From: Candidatus Kinetoplastibacterium blastocrithidii (ex Strigomonas culicis)
GTDB taxonomy: Bacteria; Pseudomonadota; Gammaproteobacteria; Burkholderiales; Burkholderiaceae_B
Length of the DNA stretch: 64,000 bases
Reading direction: 5' to 3'
NCBI RefSeq assembly: GCF_000319245.1
Contig: NC_019814.1
Coordinates: 186,001 to 250,000 of the forward strand
The notes below the pieces were generated by a model. The model was not told the DNA's origin and searched no databases. It saw only the letters and a list, made by a program, of their open reading frames with translations. The stretch's first letter is position 1, and each line of letters begins with the position of its first letter. Shown here piece by piece: positions 7,577 through 30,506 of the stretch. Both the position numbers and the translations under genes were made by a program.

Positions 7577-8680
7577 TTATTTTTTATGAATAATTTTTAA
7601 TATGGTTTTAATCAATAGTCTATTTTCAGAATCAGTGCCAACAGATAGTCTTAGGCAATTACTCAGTAAAGAATGAGAATTAGACATATCTTTTACTAAA
7701 ATGTTATTTGATTTCAATTCATTGAAAACATTTTTAGCTATAATGCTATTGTCAAACCTAACCAAAATAAAATTGCCATAGGATTCATATGATTTAATAT
7801 GATCTATTTCTCTTAATGATTCTGATAGCTTAATTCTATTTGATAGAATTTGATTAGAATGTTCATCTAAAATATATTTCTTATCTAATACGCTAAGAAT
7901 TACAGATTCTGTTAGTACATTTATATTATAGGGTGGTCTTATTTTATTTATCTGTTTTATCCATTCCGGATTACCTGCGAGATAACCAAATCGTATGCCA
8001 GCTAGACCAATTTTTGAGAATGTTCTTAGAATTAATACATTTTGTAGTTCATGTAAACGATTCATCCATGATTTTTTATTAAAAGCATAGTAGGCCTCAT
8101 CTATTATTACTAGGCCAGGAGCTATGTCTATTATTGATTGCACATCACTGTCATTCCATAGCCCACCAGTTGGATTATTTGGCATTGCTAGGAATATGAT
8201 TTTTGGTAAGTTATATTTTATGGATTCTATCATCTTACATATATCTAATTGTAGATCATCAGTAAGATCAACTTTAATAAATTTTGCGTGGTTAAATTGC
8301 GATGCCATTTCAAAGAATACAAAAGAAGGTGATGGGGATAAAACAGCATCTCCTGGCTTGCAGCAGCTTTGAATTATTAAATGTATAAGTTCATCAGATC
8401 CATTTCCAAATAATAGATCAGAATTACAAGGTATGTTAAATTTTTCTTTTATAATTCTTGTTAGTTTAGATTTATCAGTGCTAGGATAACGATTCAAATG
8501 AATCTTTCTTAGATTGTTAATAACGTGATCAAGAATTTCTTCCGGCAAGACATATGGTGATTCCATAGCATCTAATTTTATATAGTTATCAGAGCTACTA
8601 ATAGGATAAGCATCAGTTCTTAGAATATCTTCTCTAATTGTATCATTAATAAGATTTGAGAGTTTCTTATTTGCTATCAT
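7577..8680 (-). CDS. hisC: Histidinol-phosphate aminotransferase
   Basis: HisC is a PLP-dependent class-I/II aminotransferase that converts imidazole-acetol phosphate to histidinol phosphate with glutamate as donor. The 367-residue protein shows [26 protein letters not shown] (Asp and Tyr contacting PLP) and [15 protein letters not shown], where the Lys forms the Schiff base. Its first 14 bases overlap the end of hisD. No second aminotransferase is in the window. Confidence 0.96.
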
Positions 8681-25635: not shown

Positions 25636-26424
25636 TCAAGATATTAGTTCGCTTAATTTTTGTCCTGGGTCTGTAGACTTCATAAATACTTCCCCTATTA
25701 AGAATGCATTTATATTTGATTTTCTCATTATTTCTATATCTTCTTTTGAAGAGAATCCACTCTCAGTAATTATTATTTTTTCGTTTGGCACATATTCCTT
25801 TAGATTTAATGTGTTATTTATGTCTGTATGGAAACTACCGAGATTTCTATTATTAATTCCAATAAGTTTTGTTTTTAGATGTAATGCCGCGTCAATTTCA
25901 TGTCGGGTATGCGTTTCTACCAAGACATCCATTCCCAATTCCATTGCAATTGCTTCTAGATCTATTAATTGATTGATATCAAGTATAGATACTATTAATA
26001 ATATACAATCTGCTCCTATTGATCGTGCTTCTAAAACTTGATAAGGATCTATTACAAAATCTTTACGCAGAATTGGTAAATTACAGGATGATCTAGCTCT
26101 AAGTAGGTCCTCACAACATCCATGGAAAAATTCTCTATCAGTTAATACTGATAAGCAAGTTGCCCCATTTTTGGCATAGGTAATGGCAAATTTTTCTGGA
26201 TCAAAATCTTTTCTTAATATTCCTTTAGATGGAGATGCTTTTTTTATTTCTGCTATAACGCTTGGCAATCCTTGTTGAACCTTTTTTTCTATTGCATCAG
26301 CAAAACCCCTGGTAGGATCTTGTTCGCATATTTTTTCAACAAGAGCGGAATTGCTGTTTTTTTGTTTTGCTATTATTATTTCTTCTTTTTTTGCGAGTAC
26401 AATTTTCTTTAAAATATCATTCAT
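25636..26424 (-). CDS. trpC: Indole-3-glycerol phosphate synthase
   Basis: TrpC closes the indole ring of CdRP. The 262-residue barrel has the motifs [39 protein letters not shown] (catalytic Lys) and [12 protein letters not shown], then ITESGFSS and the phosphate loop [10 protein letters not shown]. It is not fused to trpF. Its start overlaps trpD by 4 bp (ATGA). It is the last gene of the trp transcript; trpF, trpB and trpA are not in this window. Confidence 0.97.
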
Positions 26425-27452
26425 TTTGAGAACTTCCTAGTATAGGCTCTAAATTCTTCTAATTTATCCCTAGCCGATCCGTTTTTTATAATTTCAAAAG
26501 CCAATGATACGCCTTGTTTAATGCTATTAGCTTTATTGCCTGCATATATTGCTAGTCCGGCATTTAAGGCAACAATATCCCTGGCAGGTCCATCTAAATT
26601 ATTTAAAGAGTCTAATATGAGTTGAGCTGATTCTGACCTATTAGATACTCTAATACTTCTATTCGATATCATTGGAATATTATAATCCTCAGGATGAATT
26701 TCATACTCTGTTATCATCCCGTTCTTTAATTCCCCAACCATTGTGGCGCTTCCTAATGCCGCTTCATCCATTCCTTCTTTGCCATATATCGTCAAAACAT
26801 GGTTAGATTTAAGTTTTTTTAGAACTCTAACTTGAATACCCACCAAATCAGAGTGGAAAACTCCCATTAGTTGATTTGCGGCACATGCTGGATTAGTTAG
26901 CGGGCCTAGTATATTAAAAATTGTGCGAACTCCAATTTCTTTTCTAACCATAGCAATATTACTCATTGCTTTTTGATGTAGTGGAGCAAACATGAATCCT
27001 ATTTTAGTATTTTCTATACATTCAATAATATGCATTGGTTCTAGTTCTATATTTACACCTAATTCCTCCAAAACATCAGCACTGCCAGAGGATGAAGATG
27101 CACCTCGATTTCCGTGTTTAGCTACTCTAACGCCGGCAGCAGCAGCAACAAACATAGCTGCAGTAGATATATTAAATGTTTGACTGCCATCTCCTCCAGT
27201 TCCGCACATATCTAGAAGATTTTCTCTATTTTTAATTGGCACCTGTTTAGAAAATTCTCGTAATGCTAAAGCAGAAGCTGTTATTTCATCAATAGTTTCT
27301 TTTTTAACTCTTAATCCTATTAGTATTGCGCTTGAGATTTGTGGTGATAGTTCTCCATTTATCATCATGCTCATTAAGCTGAACATTTCATCATGGAATA
27401 TCTCCCTATGTTCAATACATCTAGTTAAGACTTCAGTTGCAGTAATAGACAC
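26421..27452 (-). CDS. trpD: Anthranilate phosphoribosyltransferase
   Basis: TrpD joins anthranilate to PRPP. The 343 residues carry the PRPP motifs [16 protein letters not shown] and [23 protein letters not shown], plus the family segments [12 protein letters not shown] and [15 protein letters not shown]. This is the standalone enzyme without a fused TrpG domain. It lies 16 bp after trpG and overlaps trpC. Confidence 0.97.
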
Positions 27453-27468
27453 TAATTATTCTCCTATT

Positions 27469-28035
27469 CTAATTGATCATAAGAAAATTTTTTAACAGCT
27501 GATATCCATGTTCACTAAGTATGGATTCTGGATGAAACTGTACGCCAAATACAGGTAATTGTTTATGCCTTATCCCCATAATATCACCATCTGGAGCTGT
27601 GGCTGTAACTTCTAGGCATTCAGGAACGGTTGATGGATCTATAGTCAATGAGTTATATCTTATTACTGTATATGGTGATGGTATGCTATGAAAAACGCCA
27701 AGCTCATTATGTGATATTTGTATTGTTTTTCCATGCATAACATTATTGGCTCTAATGATATTACCACCAAATGCCTCACCTATGGCTTGATGTCCTAAAC
27801 ATATCCCTAATATTGGTATTTCCCCAGAAAATTCTAATATGGTAGAAATGCTGATTCCAGCTTGAGAAGGAGAGCAAGGTCCTGGAGAAATACATATTCT
27901 ATCTGGCTTTAGGTCTTTTATGCCTTGAATATCAATCTTATCATTTCTGTACACACACACTTCTTCTCCGAGTTCTCCAAAATATTGAATTATGTTATAT
28001 GTAAATGAGTCATAATTATCTATCATTAAAAGCAT
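27469..28035 (-). CDS. trpG: Anthranilate synthase glutamine amidotransferase component
   Basis: TrpG supplies ammonia to TrpE. The 188 residues contain [30 protein letters not shown], the nucleophile elbow [15 protein letters not shown], and the His/Glu of the triad in [13 protein letters not shown]. It may also serve the aminodeoxychorismate synthase of folate synthesis, as happens elsewhere; no separate pabA is visible here. It lies 39 bp after trpE. Confidence 0.96.
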
Positions 28036-28074: not shown

Positions 28075-29586
28075 TTAATCTAATCCATTTTGCACTTGTT
28101 CTGCTGCTCTAAGTATAGCTCTGGCTTTAGCTTCAGTTTCAGCCCATTCTAACTCTGGATCAGAGTCTGCTACTATTCCGGCGGCAGATTGAACATAGAG
28201 TATTCCATTCTTAATAATTCCAGTACGTATTGCTATTGCCACGTCCATTTCTCCATTATAGCTCATATATCCAGCAGCTCCTCCGTATATTCCTCTTCTT
28301 ACTGGTTCCAACTCATCTATTATTTCCATTGCTCGTACTTTTGGAGCGCCTGTTAGCGTACCAGCTGGGAATGCTGATTTTAGAACATCCATATTTCCCA
28401 TATCTGATTTTAATACTCCTGTGACATTAGATACTAGATGCATAACATGTGAATATCTCTCTATGGTCATGGCATCAGTAACTTTTACTGAGCCAATTTC
28501 AGCTACGCGTCCAATATCATTTCTAGCTAGGTCAATAAGCATGACGTGCTCTGCAATTTCTTTTGTATCAGATTTAAGAGACTTTTCTAGCTCAATATCT
28601 TGCTCACGAGTACCACCTCTTTTTCTTGTTCCTGCCAGTGGTCTTATTGTAATCTGTGATTTTTTTGCTCCGTTGATTATAATTTTTTCTTGTCTAACTA
28701 ATATTTCTGGCGATGATCCAACAACTTGGAAATCATCAAAGTTCCAGAAATACATGTAAGGAGAAGGGTTTATTGATCTTAATGATCTATATAATGATAG
28801 AGGATTATCCCTAAATGATTTTGTTATTGTTTGACCAATCACTACTTGCATAAGGTCACCGGCCTCAATATACTCTTTAGCTTTTCTTACAGCAGATATA
28901 TAGTCTTTTTTAGAGAAATTGCGTTGCTCGCTAGTTTGCATACTATTGTGAGAATAAGGTGTCTCTATAGGTTTTTTTAGTCTATTCTTCAGCTCTGTTA
29001 GTCTTTTCTGTGTTTTTGAATAGCTCTCTGGTTTGTTAGGATCTGCATATACTATTAGATAAATACGTCCAGCTAAATTATCAACTACTGCCAATTCATC
29101 TATATGCAATAACATGATATCAGGTGTCCCTTCCCCCATTCCTAGAGGGAACGGTTTTACCGCAGGTCCTAGACATGGTTCAATATTGCGAACCACATCG
29201 TAAGCAAAATATCCAGCCAATCCACCACAAAATCGTAATACTCCAGGCAAAGGAGCGGCTCTAAATCTGGATTGATATTTTTCTATAAAATCAAGAGGAT
29301 TGCCTTCATGTTTCTCTAAAACCTTACCATTTGTTATGACCTCAGTTGTATTTCCAATAGATCGCAACACTGTTTCTGTTGGCAATCCAATAAAAGAGTA
29401 CCTCCCAAAACGATCTCCACCCATTACTGATTCGAGCAAACAACTCATTTTCCCAGAGCTATTATTCGAGTATGCAAGCTTAAGATATAACGATAAAGGC
29501 GTATCTAAATCTGCATAAGTTTCTGATATTAATGGTATCCTATTATATCCTTGAGATACTAGGTGATTGAATTCTATTTCCGTCAT
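28075..29586 (-). CDS. trpE: Anthranilate synthase component I
   Basis: TrpE converts chorismate to anthranilate and commits carbon to tryptophan. The 503 residues have the N-terminal Trp-binding motif in CLLESVMGGDRFGRYSF (LLES; the Ser contacts Trp in studied enzymes). The chorismate-binding domain shows FSKKDYISAVRKAKEYI, RPLAGTRKRG, DLARNDIGRV and FPAGTLTGAPKVRAMEII. Feedback inhibition therefore looks preserved. Its ATG lies 18 bp after a strong intrinsic terminator belonging to a leader-peptide attenuator. Confidence 0.97.
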   Translation of the reverse strand: MTEIEFNHLVSQGYNRIPLISETYADLDTPLSLYLKLAYSNNSSGKMSCLLESVMGGDRFGRYSFIGLPTETVLRSIGNTTEVITNGKVLEKHEGNPLDFIEKYQSRFRAAPLPGVLRFCGGLAGYFAYDVVRNIEPCLGPAVKPFPLGMGEGTPDIMLLHIDELAVVDNLAGRIYLIVYADPNKPESYSKTQKRLTELKNRLKKPIETPYSHNSMQTSEQRNFSKKDYISAVRKAKEYIEAGDLMQVVIGQTITKSFRDNPLSLYRSLRSINPSPYMYFWNFDDFQVVGSSPEILVRQEKIIINGAKKSQITIRPLAGTRKRGGTREQDIELEKSLKSDTKEIAEHVMLIDLARNDIGRVAEIGSVKVTDAMTIERYSHVMHLVSNVTGVLKSDMGNMDVLKSAFPAGTLTGAPKVRAMEIIDELEPVRRGIYGGAAGYMSYNGEMDVAIAIRTGIIKNGILYVQSAAGIVADSDPELEWAETEAKARAILRAAEQVQNGLD

Positions 29587-29604
29587 ATTTTTTCCATGCT
29601 TACT

Positions 29605-29643
29605 AATAAAAAACCCAGAACTTTAATAAATTGTTCCGGGTTT
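29605..29643 (-). terminator. trp attenuator: intrinsic terminator hairpin before trpE
   Basis: On the minus-strand transcript, AAACCCGGAAC (29643-29633) pairs with GTTCTGGGTTT (29621-29611). This gives an 11-bp stem with a single G-U pair, an 11-nt loop, and a T-rich tail (TTTATTAG). It ends 18 nt before the trpE ATG and lies downstream of the trpL stop. That position fits a regulated attenuator, not a terminator for gph. Confidence 0.88.
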
Positions 29644-29719
29644 GATTGAGGTTTTGCTTATTAAAGCAAATTATTTTATTGGGATCTAATAAGAATCATT
29701 TACCCGGGCGGAGTACGCC
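29633..29719 (-). promoter_or_regulatory. trp leader RNA: alternative pairing (antiterminator) segments
   Basis: Four segments can be traced in the transcript. Segment 1, GGCG (29719-29716), overlaps the last Trp codon. Segment 2, CGCC (29710-29707) running into CCGGGT (29707-29702), overlaps the leader stop. Segment 3, ACCCGG (29641-29636), is the first arm of the terminator; segment 4 is the second arm. 1:2 and 3:4 can form together, whereas 2:3 (CCGGGT with ACCCGG, 6 bp) would break the terminator. A 7-bp hairpin at 29653-29670 lies between segments 2 and 3 and would bring them together. The fold was drawn by eye and not energy-minimised. Confidence 0.75.
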
Positions 29720-29768
29720 ACCAGCGCCACAAAGCGTCATGTGTTTTTTTCAGGAAGTTATGACTCAT
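29700..29768 (-). CDS. trpL: trp operon leader peptide TrpL (22 aa, contains WRWW)
   Basis: A short frame on the minus strand runs from the ATG at 29766-29768 to the TAA at 29700-29702, giving 22 residues with the run WRWW. Its three TGG codons sit at 29727-29729, 29721-29723 and 29718-29720, followed by RTPPG and the stop. Its 3' half is strikingly GC-rich for this genome, so selection is preserving it. It lies 45 bp after gph and precedes the attenuator of trpE. Low charged tRNA-Trp should stall ribosomes at these codons and favour read-through into trpEGDC. No clear ribosome-binding site or private promoter is seen. Confidence 0.85.
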   Translation of the reverse strand: MSHNFLKKTHDALWRWWRTPPG

Positions 29769-29813
29769 AATTTTATAATTAGCTATGAAATTGATTTAAA
29801 TGATCAAAAAATA

Positions 29814-30506
29814 CTACAAAGTAACACTATTATAATGATGAACCCATTGAGAAACTTTTGTCAAGTTATCTATAATTACATCAGCTCCCATTGCTTGTAT
29901 ATTTGAGTTATTATTGTATCCATAGGAAACCAATAAAGTGGCTGCAGTGTTTGCTGACTTAGAGGATAGTACATCATTTAGTGAGTCTCCAACGAATATA
30001 GTTTGTTGTGGTTTAATATTCATTTTTTTGCATGCCAGCAATATTTGATCTGGGAAAGGCTTACATTTTTGGCATGTATCCCCACATATAATATATTCAA
30101 AAAATGGTAATAAATTAGTGTCTCGTAATATTTTCATAGCTAGTTCTGTTGGTTTGTTGGTTACCACAGATGTTCTGATTTTATTGGTTTTTAATGTTTT
30201 TAAGCCATCAAGCACGCCATTATAAACTGTAGTTTTATTTCCGTTTCTTATCTTATAATTTCTTAAAAACGAGTTTTTAGCTTTTGTAAAGTAATCTTTA
30301 CTTAAGTTTATTTCGCTAGAGTTGAATGATAGAGATTTATTAATAAGACTGTCTACTCCTTTTCCGATAAGATTTTTTACTGCATTTTCAGGTATATTAT
30401 CTAGAGATATTTCTTTTAGCATGATATTGATAGCATCTGATATATCAGAGATGGAATCAATCATAGTGCCATCTAAATCTATTAGTACCGAATTAATTTC
30501 ATTCAT
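29814..30506 (-). CDS. gph: Phosphoglycolate phosphatase (HAD superfamily)
   Basis: A 230-residue HAD hydrolase with motif I DLDGTMIDSI (nucleophile and acid Asp), motif II VVTNKPTELA, the Lys of motif III in CKPFPDQIL, and motif IV FVGDSLNDVLSSKSA. Position between rpe and trpE is conserved in many proteobacteria and supports the Gph name. It would dephosphorylate 2-phosphoglycolate, though HAD enzymes are promiscuous. A histidinol-phosphate phosphatase side activity cannot be excluded. Confidence 0.88.
   Translation of the reverse strand: MNEINSVLIDLDGTMIDSISDISDAINIMLKEISLDNIPENAVKNLIGKGVDSLINKSLSFNSSEINLSKDYFTKAKNSFLRNYKIRNGNKTTVYNGVLDGLKTLKTNKIRTSVVTNKPTELAMKILRDTNLLPFFEYIICGDTCQKCKPFPDQILLACKKMNIKPQQTIFVGDSLNDVLSSKSANTAATLLVSYGYNNNSNIQAMGADVIIDNLTKVSQWVHHYNSVTL

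Follow-up and report, generated by a model that had tools for sequence, protein, structure and literature searches.

The trpEGDC operon of Candidatus Kinetoplastibacterium blastocrithidii is preceded by an element that very probably (we put the probability at about 0.85) is a ribosome-mediated transcription attenuator of these genes, one that came down from a free-living ancestor among the Alcaligenaceae and that selection has maintained in this symbiont. The leader, the terminator, the alternative pairing, the conservation, the selection and the lack of a TrpR match are each directly supported by the results below.

Genomic setting of the trp operon

We analyzed a 64-kb window (positions 186001-250000) of the single-contig, 820,037 bp Ca. 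Kinetoplastibacterium genome, and coordinates are given within that window. The attenuator region, 29605-29768 on the minus strand, lies upstream of trpEGDC in the spacer between gph and trpE (29587-29813). The features are as follows.

25636..26424, minus strand: trpC, from the ORF list; gene order kept within the genus
26421..27452, minus strand: trpD, from the ORF list; gene order kept within the genus
27469..28035, minus strand: trpG, from the ORF list; gene order kept within the genus
28075..29586, minus strand: trpE, from the ORF list, with its ATG at 29586; the first structural gene under the predicted control
29605..29613, minus strand: U tail of the intrinsic terminator, from the sequence; 29610-29605 unchanged in the clade of this symbiont
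29611..29621, minus strand: segment 4, GTTCTGGGTTT, the terminator 3′ arm; 100% identical in the clade and covarying with segment 3
29633..29643, minus strand: segment 3, AAACCCGGAAC, common to antiterminator and terminator, from folding and the 3:4 and 2:3 pairing analyses
29700..29768, minus strand: trpL-like leader peptide ORF of 22 codons plus TAA, translating as MSHNFLKKTHDALWRWWRTPPG followed by the stop
29702..29707, minus strand: segment 2, CCGGGT, which overlaps the stop codon of the leader; identity in the clade 100%, with the 2:3 pairing kept
29707..29719, minus strand: possible 1:2 hairpin of 4 bp, GGCG (29719-29716) with CGCC (29710-29707); present here, not conserved
29718..29729, minus strand: sensor codons TGG CGC TGG TGG (WRWW); 100% identical in G000, G005 and G007, with WxWW or similar in nearly all Alcaligenaceae examined
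29814..30506, minus strand: gph, the upstream neighbour of the attenuator; a pseudogene in G007 and deleted in G006

A TrpE search found a match in all eight Kinetoplastibacterium genomes, and a TrpR search found none in the symbiont genome. Kinetoplastibacterium symbionts are known to encode the Trp pathway, with both subunits of tryptophan synthase. The protists that harbour them possess just the beta subunit, and tryptophan is an amino acid that the host cannot produce alone (PMC3846528).

Leader peptide and alternative RNA structures

The original prediction, made from the sequence alone, described a 22-codon frame with three TGG codons (WRWW) ending at 29700, an 11-bp terminator with a T tail 18 bp before trpE, and a pairing of the leader end CCGGGT with the terminator arm ACCCGG. 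Translation confirms the frame (29768-29700, minus strand). When the spacer was shuffled by dinucleotides, only 12 of 5000 shuffles contained an ATG-initiated ORF with three or more Trp codons. The 3′ half of the leader had also been called GC-rich against an AT-rich background and hence selected; GC content is 75% in the WRWW core, which is invariant in the clade, and 31% over the spacer as a whole. No Shine-Dalgarno sequence is evident before the leader ATG, and a promoter search gave no signal above chance.

The coordinates proposed for the terminator are correct. It has the form AAACCCGGAAC-N11-GUUCUGGGUUU plus a U tail, with the stem formed by 29643-29633 and 29621-29611, and 18 nt separate the end of the tail from the trpE ATG. 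Folded alone, the hairpin has a predicted energy of -14.6 kcal/mol (z -4.1). In the family alignment the 3:4 stem is paired in 93.6% of cells. Covariation was detected as 16 double-changed cells, compared with 4.3 ± 1.5 in shuffles (0 of 500), and at one pair the exchange of G-C for A-U is seen in several genera.

The proposed antiterminator pairing is also present. Segment 2, CCGGGU (29707-29702), begins 10 nt past the last Trp codon and is complementary to ACCCGG in the 5′ arm of the terminator. This 2:3 pairing is kept in 95.3% of cells, compared with at most 63% after a slide of one column. Unconstrained minimum-free-energy folding of the RNA spanning segments 2 and 3 returned the 2:3 helix in all seven element-bearing symbionts and in the four free-living relatives folded. 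In the fold check suggested for this spacer, the terminator folds, and the 2:3 helix is the unconstrained optimum when segment 2 is free. The 2:3 pairing showed no two-sided covariation, with only one side varying, so covariation does not prove it; variation on one side is expected because segment 3 must pair with both segments 2 and 4.

The prediction fared less well for a pairing of GGCG with CGCC over the last Trp codon. It is possible in this sequence, but its C-G pair is present in only 4 of 54 aligned sequences. A whole-alignment RNAalifold run was set aside, since the long-range 1:4 pairing that it returned came from loose alignment of the spacer and was uninformative.

This anatomy, together with its conservation, suggests the following mechanism. 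Given ample charged tRNA-Trp, the ribosome would pass WRWW and reach the leader's stop codon, which overlaps segment 2. With the ribosome at the leader stop, segment 2 would be masked, 3:4 would form, and transcription would terminate before trpE. If charged tRNA-Trp runs short, the ribosome would instead stall on WRWW and leave segment 2 free to pair with segment 3, and transcription into trpE would continue. Trp-dependent stalling, a response to tRNA charging and a physiological use within the host are thus predicted from the element, and the symbiont may still adjust its Trp output.

Conservation in free-living Alcaligenaceae

We took TrpE upstream regions from roughly 90 genomes of this family. 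Nearly all contain an ORF of 20 to 35 codons with WRWW or a close variant, followed by CCGGGU about 10 nt past the last Trp codon, near the leader end, and by a terminator hairpin, AGCCCGG...CCGGGCUUUUU. The distance from the start codon to the Trp codons, 13-15 codons, is kept across most of the family; the residues preceding the Trp codons vary freely. By our count, leaders occur in about 35 of the 37 genera examined besides Kinetoplastibacterium, among them Pollutimonas, Candidimonas, Paenalcaligenes and Alcaligenes. The two genera without a leader (g22 and g37) both have more divergent TrpE proteins. One further genus (g31) has the leader, and a terminator was not detected there.

The leader, CCGGGT and the terminator all precede trpE in about 35 free-living genera. 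From this conservation we take the element to be a ribosome-mediated trp attenuator acquired by vertical descent, and no novelty of the symbiont. The conservation of the Trp codons and of both pairings in sister symbionts and Alcaligenaceae, which had been named as a check on the original prediction, is borne out, with covariation in 3:4.

A covariance model of the element (R1), run against 399 Burkholderiales genomes, matched 229 genomes at E ≤0.01, many of them weakly. Among the best matches that we inspected (L117-L146), the ones outside the Alcaligenaceae show no trpE in the flanks retrieved and look like ordinary GC-rich terminators; they were not counted. In other Burkholderiales families we observed Trp-rich leader-like ORFs upstream of trpE, with the motifs AWLWRRW, SWRWWR and SWRWQR (L165 and L166 of family f7, L178 of f25 and L176 of f27). 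Most of these lack a clear intrinsic terminator, and they possibly represent other attenuation types. One additional locus (L169, in the 1.2 Mb, six-contig genome G456) has a leader-like ORF, VTNLRSFSWRQWLF, upstream of trpE and no obvious intrinsic terminator.

Selection and stepwise loss within the genus

In the clade of this symbiont (G000, G005 and G007), WRWW, segment 2, segment 4 and the U run show 100% three-way identity, compared with about 70% for the spacer that separates segment 2 from segment 3, 43% for gph and 36% for the trpE-trpG spacer. Identical sites make up 44 of 46 functional positions, compared with 95 of 130 other spacer sites (Fisher p 0.0007). By these comparisons the attenuator core is under selection in the clade. 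The clade B symbionts (G001-G003) are too alike for a selection test.

The G007 genome has an intact attenuator beside fragments of gph, and the fate of the element is therefore separable from that of gph. In the gph pseudogene (L111, about 7821-8330) residues 118-230 alone are detectable, in two pieces.

At trpE, the covariance model detected the element in every genome of the genus except G006, seven of eight in all. Six genomes keep it, two of them with a displaced leader stop; one retains a single Trp codon and one has lost the element by deletion. WRWW is intact in G000, G005 and G007. In G003 an intact WLWW is followed by a stop that adjoins segment 2. Both other clade B genomes also encode WLWW. 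In G002 an indel moves the stop downstream, and in G001 (Ca. K. crithidii TCC2435; L006/L093) alignment with G003 shows that the stop changed from TAG to TGG, which adds a fourth Trp codon and lengthens the peptide. The G004 leader (833,125 bp genome; L007/L113) reads MHHIINLNKNIEASWRCFFLSG before its stop, with WRCFF and one Trp codon; its terminator and antiterminator remain, and it is possibly a fixed attenuator that no longer senses Trp. In G006 (741,697 bp; L116) gph and the leader are deleted and trpE directly follows rpe. Thus, the claim that a reduced symbiont has retained its attenuator holds for this genome, but retention is lineage-specific, and the damage in G004 and absence from G006 indicate that the element is dispensable in some lineages. 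The intact, weakened and deleted versions in sister genomes make it testable whether Trp output tracks demand, and when control becomes dispensable.

These losses would also fit a decaying relic, functional in the ancestor and now persisting by inheritance, in which a constitutive terminator merely lowers trp expression. The single Trp codon of G004, the lost stop of G001 and the empty site of G006 all point that way, as does the continued presence of trpA in G004 and G006, two of the five Kinetoplastibacterium genomes in which we confirmed this gene. However, the sensor codons, segment 2 and segment 4 are precisely the parts that stay invariant in G000, G005 and G007 while flanking DNA and gph diverge, and we consider a relic improbable.

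We think an additional role in trans very unlikely for the terminated leader RNA or its peptide. A precedent exists in another lineage, the peTrpL leader peptide of Sinorhizobium meliloti (PMC7298713), and the same kind of terminated leader RNA would be expected in the symbiont; against this, the peptide is free to vary ahead of its Trp codons across the family, and the genome of the symbiont has undergone strong reduction. That the hairpin, just 3′ of gph and on the same strand, is a mere terminator of the upstream rpe-gph unit beside an incidental Trp-rich ORF is already contradicted by the persistence of this ORF and its spacing in about 35 genera, by the hairpin that survives next to the dead gph of G007, and by the conserved complementarity of segment 2 to arm 3.

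A fifth segment in free-living relatives

Beyond the attenuator core kept by the symbionts, most free-living genomes of the family carry GYCCGGYC, 5-17 nt beyond the U run of the terminator (segment 5; L010, L022, L033, L092, L158, L161 and most other family loci). Segment 5 and arm 4 are complementary over 7-10 bp, and the complementarity reached p ≤0.05 against shuffled downstream DNA in 71 of 88 genomes. Segment 5 is absent from all seven Kinetoplastibacterium genomes that have the element. A local 2:2′ hairpin was also considered in the free-living relatives; it is frequent by position and not significant against shuffles.

Segments 4 and 5 change in step, A with U and G with C or U. Because the MAFFT alignment of the segment 4-5 region misregisters CCGG against CCCGG, pairings were scored as own against other. 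Segments from the same genome score above mixed pairs, and a reversed-strand control is also high (1/5000), so that the apparent 4:5 covariation is supportive, not decisive. Since segment 5 is transcribed only once termination has been avoided, it cannot prevent termination. Our guess is that it may prevent the re-pairing of arm 4 in the readthrough mRNA.

On balance we lean slightly towards a broader reading, in which the Alcaligenaceae trp leader would be an uncatalogued five-segment attenuator, with 2:3 plus 4:5 set against 3:4 in readthrough RNA, and Kinetoplastibacterium would have a streamlined four-segment core. The genus would then record a stepwise dismantling during symbiosis, involving the fifth segment, the leader stop, the Trp codons and finally the whole element.

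Comparison with known systems

The symbiont element resembles the E. coli trpL attenuator (RF00513) in its short leader ORF with clustered Trp codons, its mutually exclusive 2:3 and 3:4 structures and an intrinsic terminator just before trpE. The E. coli trp leader has WW where the symbiont has WRWW. The element differs from trpL in lacking a conserved 1:2 hairpin, in residing in a genome without a TrpR match, and in its score against the Rfam Trp_leader model, 14.5 bits (E 2.5) where the threshold is 41, for a full-length alignment on the right strand (29605-29729). The classic enterobacterial 1:2, 2:3 and 3:4 logic originally proposed is therefore an overstatement: the 2:3 and 3:4 pairings are conserved but the 1:2 pairing is not. 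An Rfam search with 12 free-living homologues gave no match at E up to 1, and searches of Pfam and NCBIfam with the symbiont peptide and two free-living ones gave no match to a leader-peptide model. We found no T-box or other Rfam cis-regulator upstream of trpE at the gathering score; the window yielded only tRNAs.

The closest counterparts are orthologous, the leaders of free-living Alcaligenaceae such as Pollutimonas, Candidimonas and Alcaligenes, which share WRWW, CCGGGU and AGCCCGG...CCGGGCUUUUU directly before trpE. Unlike the symbionts, they have the additional segment 5 and a GC-rich, structured intervening spacer. The trp attenuators of Corynebacterium and Streptomyces (PMC1262725) likewise combine a UGG-repeat leader peptide, a GC-rich poly-U terminator and a triple complementary motif, but they belong to another phylum and differ in sequence, and we claim no homology. 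We found no description of trp attenuation in Kinetoplastibacterium or Alcaligenaceae in the open-access literature. The element thus appears, from its sequence features, to share its mechanism type and structure with ribosome-mediated trp attenuators while standing outside the catalogued enteric family.

Buchnera and Serratia symbiotica are also reduced nutritional symbionts that produce essential amino acids. In Serratia symbiotica thrL is eroded or detached (PMC4122931), and in Buchnera leader sequences and attenuation are reported to be absent (PMC3091783). Reduced nutritional symbionts in general are usually described as no longer having attenuation. Here, in a genome with no TrpR detected, the trp operon keeps an attenuator that is under selection.
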